Source: Labilithrix sp.
GTDB lineage: Bacteria > Myxococcota_A > Polyangia > Polyangiales > Polyangiaceae
Length of the DNA stretch: 64,000 nt
NCBI GenBank assembly: GCA_019637155.1
Contig: JAHBWE010000007.1
Coordinates: 310,001-374,000 of the forward strand
Direction: 5' to 3'
The position numbers and the translations under genes are program-made. Positions 5,791 through 61,562 of this stretch are shown here, one piece after another (position 1 is the stretch's first letter; each line of letters opens with the position of its first letter). The notes below the pieces were generated by a model that was given only the letters and a program-made list of their open reading frames with translations, was not told the origin of the DNA and ran no database searches.

Positions 5791-6923
5791 TGCGCGCTCT
5801 CCTCTCGATCCTCGTCTCGATCGTCTCGATCGCCGCGTGCTCGACGCCGAAGCGCGCGCCCACCCCCGCCGCGTCGTCGGCCGCGCCGCCGGCGACCAGC
5901 TCCGCCGCCACCGCCGCGAGCGCGACGCCGCCGTCGATCGACGCCGCCGCTCCGGCCGCGTCCTTCGCGCTTCGTGACGTCCCGCTCGCGCGCGCGCCGG
6001 GGCGCGGTCCGATCAAGGTCGAGGGCGCATACCCGACGCCGCTGAACGTCGGGATGAGCGACGCCGCGCAGGCGTTCGGGTTCATGAGCGACGGCAAGAC
6101 GTTCGCGTATTGCCAGTTCGATCAGTGCTGCGTCGAAGACGCCCACTGGTGCAACCTCGTCGACGAGAGCGGCGCGGTCCGCGCGCTCGTGTCGCCGCGT
6201 ATCTTCGAGCCCGGATCGAAGAACGAGCGGCGAACGGTGGGCGAGCTGAAGGCGTTCCCGAAGAAGGAAGGGCTGACGTCGCTCGGCCCGCCGATCGAGA
6301 TGACGCAGAAGCCGCCGCCGCCGAAGGGCGAGCTCCTCTACGGCGACGAGATTACGCTCGTCGTCCGCGAGATCGCGCCGACGGAGAAGGACGGCGCCAC
6401 CACCATCGCCGGCTCCGTGCGCATCGGCGGCAAGCTCGCGGGCGAGCAGCCCGTGTTCGTGGCGTTCCCGCCGACGCCGCCGTTCTGCGCCACGTACGCC
6501 GACGTCTGTTTCGGGGCGCAGCTGAACGCCCTCGCGGTGTCGCCGTCGGGCGAGGACCTCGCGTTCGTCGTGTACATCCGGAACCCGAGCCACGGCTCGA
6601 CCTTCACCCATCTGCGCGTGAGCGCGTCGAGCTTCGCCGCGAGCGTGTTCAACGACACCGCGATGACGCATCACAAGAAGAAGGAGTGGCCACGCGCGGC
6701 GGAGCTCTTCACGCGCGCGGTCTACGCCGATCCGACGAAGGAGCTCTTCGCCTACAACCTCGCGTGCGCGCTGTCGCAACAGAAGGACCCCCGCGCCGAG
6801 CACGCCCTCCGCCACGCGATCGCCCTCGGCGGCGAACCGGTGAAGAAGCGCGCCCTCGCCGACGCCGACTTCACCGCCGTGATGAGCGAGCCCTGGTTCA
6901 CCGCCCTCGTCCGAGCTCCATGA
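5790..6923 (+). CDS. Lipoprotein with TPR-like C-terminal segment
   Basis: Protein of 377 residues. The ATG at 5790 overlaps the upstream stop. The signal ends in SIAACS (Cys near residue 16) and is followed by a Pro/Ala-rich linker. The centre (about residues 85-280) is a Cys-containing beta domain (CQFDQCCVEDAHWC) of unknown family. The end (about residues 290-360) contains helical text typical of a tetratricopeptide pair (WPRAAELFTRAVYADPTKEL, AYNLACALSQQKDPRAE). Such repeats normally bind protein partners. No specific role can be assigned. Confidence 0.8.
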   Translation: MRALLSILVSIVSIAACSTPKRAPTPAASSAAPPATSSAATAASATPPSIDAAAPAASFALRDVPLARAPGRGPIKVEGAYPTPLNVGMSDAAQAFGFMSDGKTFAYCQFDQCCVEDAHWCNLVDESGAVRALVSPRIFEPGSKNERRTVGELKAFPKKEGLTSLGPPIEMTQKPPPPKGELLYGDEITLVVREIAPTEKDGATTIAGSVRIGGKLAGEQPVFVAFPPTPPFCATYADVCFGAQLNALAVSPSGEDLAFVVYIRNPSHGSTFTHLRVSASSFAASVFNDTAMTHHKKKEWPRAAELFTRAVYADPTKELFAYNLACALSQQKDPRAEHALRHAIALGGEPVKKRALADADFTAVMSEPWFTALVRAP

Positions 6924-58753: not shown

Positions 58754-59000
58754 CGAGGATCCACGTCGGGGCGGTCATCTCGATCGAGTCCTGCAAATGA
58801 TGACTGTTGAACGGCGTCGTGACCCACGCGCGCTCTTCGTCGTGAGGTCGAACAGATCGTCATGATCCGAGGCCCGCGAGCTGTGGCCAACTGCGCCGAT
58901 GCTCGCGCAACCTGCGCAGCGTGGGTCCGGATGAACGCCGGGATATCCACGTTCGGCGATCCAGTTGTTGGGCGCGGCGGCTCCCGCGAGCGCGTTTCCG
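58728..59000 (-). pseudogene. Decayed gene remnant spread over three frames
   Basis: On the minus strand one frame reads VDIPAFIRTHAAQVARASAQ, a second reads HDDLFDLTTKSARG, and a third ends with ERAWVTTPFNSHHLQDSIEM followed by TAPTWILVNE near 58750. Each piece looks coding and they follow each other with one-base shifts near 58863 and 58832. No intact frame remains and no family is recognised. This explains the otherwise gene-free interval 58754-59040. Confidence 0.35.
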
Positions 59001-59040: not shown

Positions 59041-60510
59041 ATGACTTGCCTACGGGTCGCCCTCCTGAGCGCTGCGACGTTCGTCGCGTGCGCGCGGGAT
59101 GACGCGGAGACTGCGTCGGCGCCGGCGTACCAGACCGACGAGAGCGGCGTGACCAGGCTCACGTTCGACGGTGATGCGCCAAGTGGCGGTCCGGATCACT
59201 TCTTCATCCCGTTCGACGTGCCCCCGGGGATCGCCGAGATCCAGGTGCGCCACGACACCCTCGCGCGCGCGAACATCCTCGACTGGGGGCTCGATGACAG
59301 CGCCGGCACTCGCGGCTGGGGCGGCGGCACGAGCGAGCCGGCCGTCGTCAACGAGAAGGCGGCCTCCCCCGGGTACGTGCGTGGCGCGATCAAACCCGGC
59401 CGCTGGAGGGTCGTCGTCGGCAAGGCGAAGATCGCAAAAGCGCCCGCGACCTATCACGTCGAGATCGAGCTCCGTACGACGGCGACGCTCCAGCCACAGA
59501 CTGACCGCAAACCCTACCTACCGCGCGTCGCCTCGCGCGAGGCTCGGTGGTACGCGGGCGATTTCCACGTCCACTCCCGCGACAGCACGGACGCGACTCC
59601 CTCGGTCGACGACATCGCGGTCTACGCGCGCGCGCACGGGCTCGACTTCGTCGAAATCTCCGACCACAACGTGTTTGGCGGCCAGGACTATTTCGCCGAA
59701 GCGGCGGCGGCCCACCCCGATCTCCTGCTGCTTCCAGGCGTGGAGTTCACCACCTACGCCGGTCACGCGAACGGGATCGGCGCGACGCGTTGGGTCGATC
59801 ACAAGATCGGTCAGCCCGGCGTCACGATCGACGGCGCGGTGGCCGCGTTCAAGGAGCAAGGGGCCCTCTTCGCCATCAATCACCCCAAGCTCGACCTCCA
59901 CCAGTGCATCGGCTGCGAGTGGCGGCACGACCTCGACGGATCGAAGATCGATGCCGTCGAGATAGCGAACCTCGGCCTGGCGAGCGGCGGCGCGATCATG
60001 CTGCCAGGCGCGATCGGCTTCTGGGACGCCCTCTGCGCCCGCGGCCACCACGCAGCCGCGCTCGGAGGCAGCGACGACCATCGCGCCGGCACGGCGACGG
60101 GCATGTTCGCGAGCAGGCTCGGTGAACCGGTCACGATGGTCTTCGCCGAGGAGCTGAGCGCGGCCGGGATCCTCCAGGGGATCCGCAACAACCGCACCGT
60201 CGTGAAGCTACGCGGCGCGGCCGATCCGATGGTGGACCTCACCGCAGAGCCCGGCACGGCGACGGAAGCGGATGGAACGCGCCACCTCCGCGCGAAGGTG
60301 ACCGGGCTCGCCGGCGTCCCCGGCGCGACCGTACACGTGCGCCTCGTCAAGAATGGCCTCGCGGAGCCGCCTGTCCTCGTGCCGGCGGATGGTTTCACGC
60401 ACGAGGTCATCGTCACCGCTCCCACGACGGGGGAGGATCGGTACCGTGCCGAGGTCCTCGTCAACGGCTTGCTTCGGACCATTACTAGCAACGTATTCCT
60501 CCTCCATTAG
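59041..60510 (+). CDS. CehA/McbA-type PHP-domain metallohydrolase lipoprotein
   Basis: Protein of 489 residues. ATG 59041 gives a lipoprotein signal ending TFVACA; the earlier GTG at 59011 does not. A beta domain (about 25-150) precedes the PHP domain (about 165-400): WYAGDFHVHSRDSTDAT, GLDFVEISDHNVFGG, LLLPGVEFTTYAGHANGIG, ALFAINHPKLDLHQCIGCEW and GGSDDHRAG. These supply the His/Asp/Glu cluster for two to three metal ions. A C-terminal beta domain ends it. CehA/McbA-type enzymes hydrolyse esters or phosphoesters; the natural substrate here is unknown. Extracytoplasmic by the lipid anchor. Confidence 0.9.
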   Translation: MTCLRVALLSAATFVACARDDAETASAPAYQTDESGVTRLTFDGDAPSGGPDHFFIPFDVPPGIAEIQVRHDTLARANILDWGLDDSAGTRGWGGGTSEPAVVNEKAASPGYVRGAIKPGRWRVVVGKAKIAKAPATYHVEIELRTTATLQPQTDRKPYLPRVASREARWYAGDFHVHSRDSTDATPSVDDIAVYARAHGLDFVEISDHNVFGGQDYFAEAAAAHPDLLLLPGVEFTTYAGHANGIGATRWVDHKIGQPGVTIDGAVAAFKEQGALFAINHPKLDLHQCIGCEWRHDLDGSKIDAVEIANLGLASGGAIMLPGAIGFWDALCARGHHAAALGGSDDHRAGTATGMFASRLGEPVTMVFAEELSAAGILQGIRNNRTVVKLRGAADPMVDLTAEPGTATEADGTRHLRAKVTGLAGVPGATVHVRLVKNGLAEPPVLVPADGFTHEVIVTAPTTGEDRYRAEVLVNGLLRTITSNVFLLH

Positions 60511-60845
60511 CCCCCACCCAGCGCGGCTTCGCCGCGCTGCCTCCCCCTTGCCCGTGCTCGGGCCTTCGGCCCTGCGCGCGGACGGGGGAGGAGCTTGCTC
60601 GTTGGTCGGTGCGTTCGTGTGACCGGACGCTGCGGGAGGTGAGCTCCCATCGCCCATGCTTCGCGGCGCGGATGCGCGCCGAGCTACGGGACGCGCACCT
60701 TCCGCGCCGCGCACGAGCGCCGCGCTCCTTCCCCACCGCCATGGCGCGGCACGCAAGCTGCGCTTGAGCCTTCGCTCGGCGCGCATCCGCGCCGCTCAGG
60801 AGGCTTCATGTTTGGTCGCTCGCTCGTCACCCCGGCTCACGCGCT
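60510..60845 (+). repeat. Direct repeat copy A, DUF559-associated, with truncated DUF559 start
   Basis: This block begins GCCCCCACCCAGCGCGGCTT and ends with 13 codons (MFGRSLVTPAHAL at 60808) that equal the start of the DUF559 gene. It contains hairpins (GCGCGGC-TTC-GCCGCGC; GGGCC-TTC-GGCCC) and a perfect 20-base inverted repeat with arms 60665-60684 and 60774-60793. An AGGAGG box before the truncated start is retained. The same block recurs at 60854-61229. Confidence 0.9.
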
Positions 60846-60853
60846 CGGGATGG

Positions 60854-61229
60854 GCCCCCACCCAGCGCGGCTTCGCCGCGCTGCCTGCCCCTTGTCCGTG
60901 CTCGGGCCTTCGGCCCTGCGCGCGGACGGGGGAGGAGCTTGCTCGTTGGTCGGTGCGTTCGTGCAACCGGAAGATTGCATATCTCGGCGGGACATGCGGT
61001 GTCTTAATCGAGCTGCGGGAGGTGAGCTCCCATCGCCCATGCTTCGCGGCGCGGATGCGCGCCGAGCTACGGGACGCGCACCTTCCGCGCCGCGCACGAG
61101 CGCCGCGCTCCTCCCCCACCGCCATGGCGCGGCACGCAAGCTGCGCTTGAGCCTTCGCTCGGCGCGCATCCGCGCCGCTCAGGAGGCTTCATGTTCGGTC
61201 GCTCACTCGTCACCCCGGCTCACGCGCTC
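60854..61229 (+). repeat. Direct repeat copy B, upstream of and into the intact DUF559 gene
   Basis: Nearly identical to copy A, but about 40 bases longer because of a different, more AT-rich segment (about 60962-61010). The inverted-repeat arms lie at 61048-61067 and 61157-61176. The final 39 bases are the first 13 codons of the intact DUF559 gene, and divergence from copy A begins at codon 14. Together the two copies form a tandem duplication with period 344 at their left ends. Confidence 0.9.
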
Positions 61230-61562
61230 ATCCTCGAACAGCGCGCTCGCACCATGCGCTTCGCGCCTACCCGCGGCGAGGAGTGCCTCTGGCGCGTCCT
61301 CTCCGGCTCCAAAACCGGCTTCGCCTTCCGTCGCCAGCTCGTCATCGCGAATCACATCGTCGACTTCGCTTGCACCAAGGTCCGCCTCGCCGTCGAGGTG
61401 GACGGTGGCGCTCACCAAGGGCGCGAGCCACACGATGCCCAGCGGGACCGCGAGCTCGAGGCACTCGGCTGGAGCGTCGTCCGCATCCCGGAGCAGCTCC
61501 TCTTCTCCAACCTCGAGGAAGCTGTCCGCCGCATCCTCGCTCGCGCCATGCGGGCGCGTTGA
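61191..61562 (+). CDS. DUF559 (Vsr-like) nuclease-fold protein
   Basis: Protein of 123 residues, the usual DUF559 size. ATG 61191 follows a perfect AGGAGG. Family text is ARTMRFAPTRGEECLWRVLS, FRRQLVIANHIVDFACTKVR, LAVEVDGGAHQGREPHDAQRDRELEALGW (shown in part) and VVRIPEQLLFSNLEEAV. The VDFAC...VEVDGGAH arrangement supplies the acidic residues of a PD-(D/E)xK/Vsr-type endonuclease site. Its role in the cell is unknown. The upstream 376 bases, including a 20-base inverted repeat, are duplicated, so the gene may travel as a small repeated element. Confidence 0.9.
   Translation: MFGRSLVTPAHALILEQRARTMRFAPTRGEECLWRVLSGSKTGFAFRRQLVIANHIVDFACTKVRLAVEVDGGAHQGREPHDAQRDRELEALGWSVVRIPEQLLFSNLEEAVRRILARAMRAR

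Follow-up and report, generated by a model that had tools for sequence, protein, structure and literature searches.

The question raised by this locus is why a gene for a small DUF559 nuclease is preceded by two copies of its own upstream region, each ending in the start of that gene. The window, i.e. the whole 64,000-nt stretch of Labilithrix sp. DNA analysed here, contains copy A (60510-60846) and copy B (60854-61229), which are 97–99% alike outside 39 bases specific to B.

The duplicated leader and its nuclease gene

Comparison of A with B reveals a direct repeat of 118 nt (60510-60627 and 60854-60971, 97% identity) and another of 218 nt (60629-60846 and 61012-61229, 99% identity). Repetition of 218 nt at 99% identity excludes chance as the source. 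Both copies end in the 13 starting codons of DUF559 (MFGRSLVTPAHAL), the sequences part at codon 14, and an intact continuation is present after B only (61191-61562). This repeat comparison confirms the original prediction in its description of nearly identical copies with structured leaders, a ribosome-binding site, 13 shared codons and a split at codon 14. The inverted repeat, predicted to be perfect over 20 bases, is indeed perfect, but its outer perfect part is 22 nt long, within 27-nt arms that are 93% complementary. In both A and B, a GGAGG-type ribosome-binding site lies downstream of this inverted repeat. The features are as follows.

60510-60592, forward strand: copy A module 1, comprising the foot GCCCCCACCC, hairpin 1 (60519-60539) and hairpin 2 (60540-60591); fold z -4.1
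60663-60795, forward strand: copy A module 2, a 22-nt perfect inverted repeat (60663-60684 and 60774-60795) around approximately 89 nt, followed by the ribosome-binding site
60808-60846, forward strand: truncated DUF559 of copy A, 13 initial codons
60847-60853, forward strand: A/B junction, the seven bases GGGATGG, unrelated to the gene
60854-60936, forward strand: copy B module 1, comprising the foot GCCCCCACCC, hairpin 1 (60863-60883) and hairpin 2 (60884-60935); fold z -5.0; similar sequences occur in genus-mates
60973-61011, forward strand: segment of about 39 bases, present in B and (longer and diverged) in copy D, missing in A and copy C
61046-61178, forward strand: copy B module 2, arms 61046-61067 and 61157-61178, with the ribosome-binding site immediately after; fold z -5.0
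61191-61562, forward strand: DUF559 gene, 123 aa, a one-domain PD-(D/E)XK nuclease (PF04480)

Predicted single-strand folding is 4–5 standard deviations better than that of shuffled sequences for module 1 of A and B and for module 2 of B. A match to Rfam mir-2071 in the leader was rejected as a GC-rich chance hit (24.6 against a gathering score of 100). The window unit has a palindrome on its left but none on its right, and inspection by eye revealed no target-site duplication at A/B or at copy C.

The predicted protein matches PF04480 (E 1.2e-26; 93.2 bits against a gathering threshold of 20.6), with the family-invariant alignment columns E30, D58, E69, D71 and H75 intact. Its structure model (pLDDT 91.8) has as its nearest solved structure NGO0050 (3hrl), of the same Pfam family (profile E 1.7e-28). 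The same fold is found in the Vsr-like homing endonuclease I-Bth0305I (3r3p; Foldseek E 7e-5, profile E 7.7e-6), and structure search also relates the fold to that of Vsr. The Vsr family model TIGR00632 is not matched (14.2 bits, where 97.85 is required), and Pfam gave no Y1 transposase domain in the protein. Only 1 of 50,697 phage records and 37 of 72,556 plasmid records contain DUF559; because of this rarity, an origin as phage or plasmid cargo was rejected. Membership of a defence family was also rejected, the PADLOC matches being weak.

Block copies in the genome, genus and order

A search of this genome and its relatives for the block of about 340 bases, as proposed in the original prediction, found four copies in the genome itself. 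These are not dispersed but lie together within 11 kb of contig C7: A, B with its gene, C with its gene (L011 9096-9764) and the diverged copy D. An intact DUF559 gene follows two of the four blocks, a truncated start one and no gene the remaining one. The expectation that every copy would precede a DUF559 gene was therefore wrong, since copy D and solo palindromes lack one. Homology between B and C has its right limit at the DUF559 stop codon, and these two copies share their ends with no transposase inside. Copy A has a mosaic composition: over the initial 118 nt it departs from C at 1 base and from B at 4, and over the final 218 nt from B at 3 and from C at 11. A/B may reflect either insertion into an older DUF559 gene or tandem duplication followed by gene conversion. 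High-copy dispersed palindromes were not encountered in this genome. A further partial DUF559 gene adjoins the 3' end of rpoC, approximately 15 kb away.

Two details were also noted. At the rpoC 3' end, a DUF559 3' part is fused after a short frame resembling a transposase start (L017, G000:C7:385969). About 1.6 kb upstream of A/B, a gene fragment (window 58754-58886) is 86% identical over 134 nt to part of the gene 3' of copy C (L011 10065-10198).

Such an arrangement could have arisen if DUF559 were an ordinary chromosomal Vsr-like repair nuclease whose leader is structured and regulatory, A/B being the product of local tandem duplication and gene conversion with no selfish function. The restriction of the blocks to 11 kb, the mosaic of B and C seen in A, and the scarcity of DUF559 in phages and plasmids are consistent with this, and a report on the DUF559 protein VsrA of Caulobacter proposes that it is a mismatch-repair enzyme (PMC12907096). 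It is nevertheless quite improbable, given the failure to match the Vsr model, the 15–34 copies in some relatives with near-identical units dispersed, and, as described below, the palindromes that lie downstream of DUF559 as well and an empty site.

The full block is not present in genus-mates, where conservation is limited to the palindrome at the 5' end and to portions of the 3' half; some of these copies have no DUF559. In G117 and G122, module 1 and module 2 are separated by other genes, at the place of the extra segment of B. Amongst 13 copies of module 1, 10 of 29 pairs show a double compensatory change, which supports the two-hairpin palindrome at the 5' end of the block. The outcome named in the original prediction as its refutation, a block found only here or with no DUF559 association, was not obtained.

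DUF559 adjoins the rpoC 3' end in the genus-mates G117 and G121, is represented there by remnants in G122 and is lacking there in G120. Homing to the rpoC 3' end was rejected as the main mechanism; the position is real for this genus, yet in other genera, and for other copies, DUF559 is located elsewhere. In G122, three rpoC 3'-end fragments (L079, contig C79, 4259-4320, 5065-5160 and 6621-6787), each abutting module 1, lie near an intact rpoC, and two of the three are nearly contiguous within rpoC. From their order, it is as if units had been inserted successively while the intact rpoC end was retained. The same locus contains, on the reverse strand at 5900-6470, two small genes resembling by eye a DUF433/DUF5615 toxin–antitoxin pair, between module 1 and a module 2 remnant with DUF559. 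Within the family, loci of the PHP-type gene upstream in the window (relatives approximately 50–58% identical) have no DUF559 or modules outside this genome.

Across the family and order, DUF559 is present in 69 of 183 genomes, with up to 34 matches per genome (G153 34, G084 27, G071 25, G078 15 and G082 15); multicopy DUF559 genes are frequently fragments or at contig ends. Hairpins upstream of DUF559 in Polyangiales are enriched approximately tenfold at -200 to -10. The layout seen in the window recurs in G084 (5 contigs) as an 805-bp unit of two hairpins, leader, DUF559 and 3' end, whose copies are approximately 99% identical and occur both dispersed and head-to-tail; no transposase is found inside it and no target-site duplication was seen by eye. 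At another G084 locus, one DUF559 gene is preceded by four tandem leaders. This is an A/B-type architecture of separate origin, the junction lying at the ribosome-binding site in G084 and at codon 13 in the window. Solo left ends also occur in relatives, one of them directly behind a stop codon.

Several G084 loci combine DUF559 with other mobile DNA. Group II introns (Rfam RF02005/RF00029) lie in or beside DUF559 leaders at L098, L107 and L118; an IS110-like element, identified by eye, interrupts one leader copy in the region of hairpin 1 (L109 2425-4079); and at L103–L108 a 2.2-kb repeat, in several copies, is common to an IS91-like transposase (by eye) and one DUF559 type. The 98–100% identity of the copies of this last repeat could suggest that DUF559 units are passengers of neighbouring transposons, for example IS91-like or IS110-like. 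We regard this as highly improbable, as the G084 805-bp unit and window copies B and C share their ends irrespective of any transposase and contain none. In addition, leaders are interrupted by the introns and the IS110-like insertion, which must therefore have arrived later.

Palindromes beside DUF559 in other phyla

A genome scan for DUF559 gave 80 loci. In 37 of 70 loci the gene lies between exact inverted repeats, compared with 54 of 2919 control pairs (1.8%). Bracketing was seen in 14/19 alphaproteobacterial, 12/19 Bacteroidota and 10/18 other-phylum loci, and in 1/14 from Myxococcota. Strong hairpins are present at 3.28/kb upstream and 3.26/kb downstream of DUF559, compared with 0.24/kb and 0.78/kb, respectively, around other genes at these loci. 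The palindromes of the association have the foot GCCCCC[T/A]CC together with hairpins of the CCTCCCC..GGGGAGG type, and alphaproteobacterial DUF559 genes are commonly located directly between inverted palindromes of the CCCTCCCC/GGGGAGGG type. In the Myxococcota loci sampled, bracketing is rare and a CCCTCCC-type motif is not enriched, so that it is the layout which ties the window to the general pattern.

The palindromes also occur without the gene. In G205, palindromes that elsewhere bracket DUF559 enclose merely a short spacer; by their anatomy, these gene-bearing and gene-free pairs are an autonomous/non-autonomous pair. An empty site, of the kind to be looked for under the original prediction, exists in Shinella, where two genes lie 9 nt apart. 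The same genes are separated in Sinorhizobium K101 by 762 nt, consisting of a palindrome pair, DUF559 and a second palindrome pair.

At the level of whole genomes, a generic palindrome pattern was counted in 80 alphaproteobacterial genomes against the same pattern reversed. Of the 24 genomes having a strong DUF559 match, 18 showed palindrome excess, as did 3 of the 56 others (odds ratio 53, p 4e-10, with no phylogenetic correction), at a threshold of at least 9 that was chosen after the counts were seen. A threshold-free rank test of excess against DUF559, again with no phylogenetic correction, gave p 5e-8, and amongst genomes of at least 3.3 Mb the excess was found in 15/18 with DUF559 and 1/19 without. 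Six of the 24 DUF559-positive genomes show no excess. The main exception to the association is the alphaproteobacterial genome G213, with counts of 59 versus 12 and neither DUF559 nor Y1_Tnp detected. Y1_Tnp, the RAYT-type transposase, is absent in 14 of the 18 palindrome-rich DUF559-positive alphaproteobacteria, as it is in G084, G117, G121 and G122.

DUF559 was also found within conserved gene pairs, namely sufB/sufC (annotated) and ruvC/ruvA (recognized by eye), at L288 (Sphingomonas plasmid NZ_CP155753.1), L291 and L297.

Positions of this kind are what would be expected if DUF559 were a free-standing homing-type nuclease gene that enters gene ends or existing palindromes, the palindromes being landing pads or terminators spread by other means and the leader no more than a 5' untranslated region. 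Similarity to I-Bth0305I, the location beside the rpoC 3' end in four genus-mates, and the rpoC fragments by module 1 in G122 would agree with such a gene, and certain insertion sequences have been reported to target REPs (PMC1525189). Landing pads, however, would not be expected to show an excess almost confined to genomes with DUF559, nor to differ in subtype between the DUF559 copies of a single genome, as these palindromes do. We therefore judge this explanation unlikely, although it deserves more weight than local duplication of a repair gene.

Known systems and a possible mode of spread

The closest parallel is with REP/REPIN sequences and their RAYT transposases, the REPtrons (PMC3116915, PMC3733652). 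Both systems have short inverted palindrome pairs in many intergenic copies, an enzyme gene between or beside its cognate palindromes, and solo as well as gene-bearing forms; for DUF559, high-copy dispersed palindromes are a feature of most alphaproteobacteria that carry the gene. They differ in that a DUF559 PD-(D/E)XK nuclease replaces the HUH/Y1 transposase, and the window palindrome has no GTAG tag. A search for the defining Y1 enzyme showed most of these genomes to lack it; the DUF559 units are REPtron-like, yet are not REPtrons. CGTC-tagged REPs, which predominate in alphaproteobacteria and were reported in 2013 without a dedicated transposase (PMC3733652), are likewise abundant palindromic dimers. 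Their published stems, however, are 8–9 bp long and begin with A/T (PMC3733652), and the CGTC tag was found in only 12 of 122 hairpins near DUF559 and in neither A nor B. Assignment to the CGTC-tagged REPs was rejected, as the tag is mostly missing at DUF559 palindromes.

Amongst related nucleases, I-Bth0305I carries the annotation of a mobile intron protein, whereas the window has a one-domain gene with palindromes and no intron. As a difference from the Vsr mismatch endonuclease, no methylase gene was noticed next to the window gene. NGO0050 and Caulobacter VsrA belong to the same Pfam family; the searched passages of the VsrA report give no link to palindromes or mobility (PMC12907096).

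We consider it just about probable that the stretch in the window is a miniature selfish unit, composed of a module 1 palindrome, a module 2 leader and the DUF559 nuclease, REP- or REPtron-like in organization and part of the wider DUF559–palindrome association. The self-propagating element envisaged in the original prediction gains partial support from the tie between block and DUF559, the multiplication of units in relatives, the recurrence of tandem leaders in G084, the palindrome link across phyla and the empty site; the full block, on the other hand, proved to be local. Within the association the window unit is unusual, having few copies and a left palindrome only. More generally, the association of DUF559 with short GC-rich palindromes across phyla suggests an undescribed kind of miniature selfish DNA. 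No earlier description of such a system was found in the open-access literature, subscription papers and preprints lying mostly outside the search.

Mobilization of the palindromes, or of itself, by DUF559 is inferred, and could proceed as follows. Single-stranded palindromes would fold into hairpins, as structure prediction and the compensatory changes indicate. DUF559 may then bind, nick or cut at or beside the palindromes, or at the target. Repair or recombination could copy the palindrome, alone or with the enclosed gene, into new intergenic sites, often just past stop codons. Finally, recombination between nearby copies would give rise to tandem leaders and to mosaics like A/B, of which the mosaic itself is observed. 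Gene-free copies, such as D and the solo palindromes, would represent the non-autonomous form.

A broader proposal, which we offer tentatively and rate at somewhat less than an even chance, is that palindrome-mobilizing elements of a separate class, represented in several phyla, have DUF559 as their founding enzyme. By acting on DNA hairpins, this PD-(D/E)XK nuclease would spread both its own gene, between palindromes, and gene-free palindrome pairs, which would explain the abundant palindromic repeats of alphaproteobacterial genomes that lack RAYTs.

The Caulobacter report describes a DNA damage response caused by VsrA in cells that lack a cytosine methylase (PMC12907096), which is the only in vivo evidence met here for DNA damage by a DUF559 protein. 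That response gains new light if proteins of this family act on palindromes. Repeats of the REP type are widespread, and DUF559, in travelling with one class of them, is a testable candidate for their spreader; this suggests a function for the family. If true, there would be a second enzyme lineage, besides the HUH transposases, for palindrome-based miniature elements.
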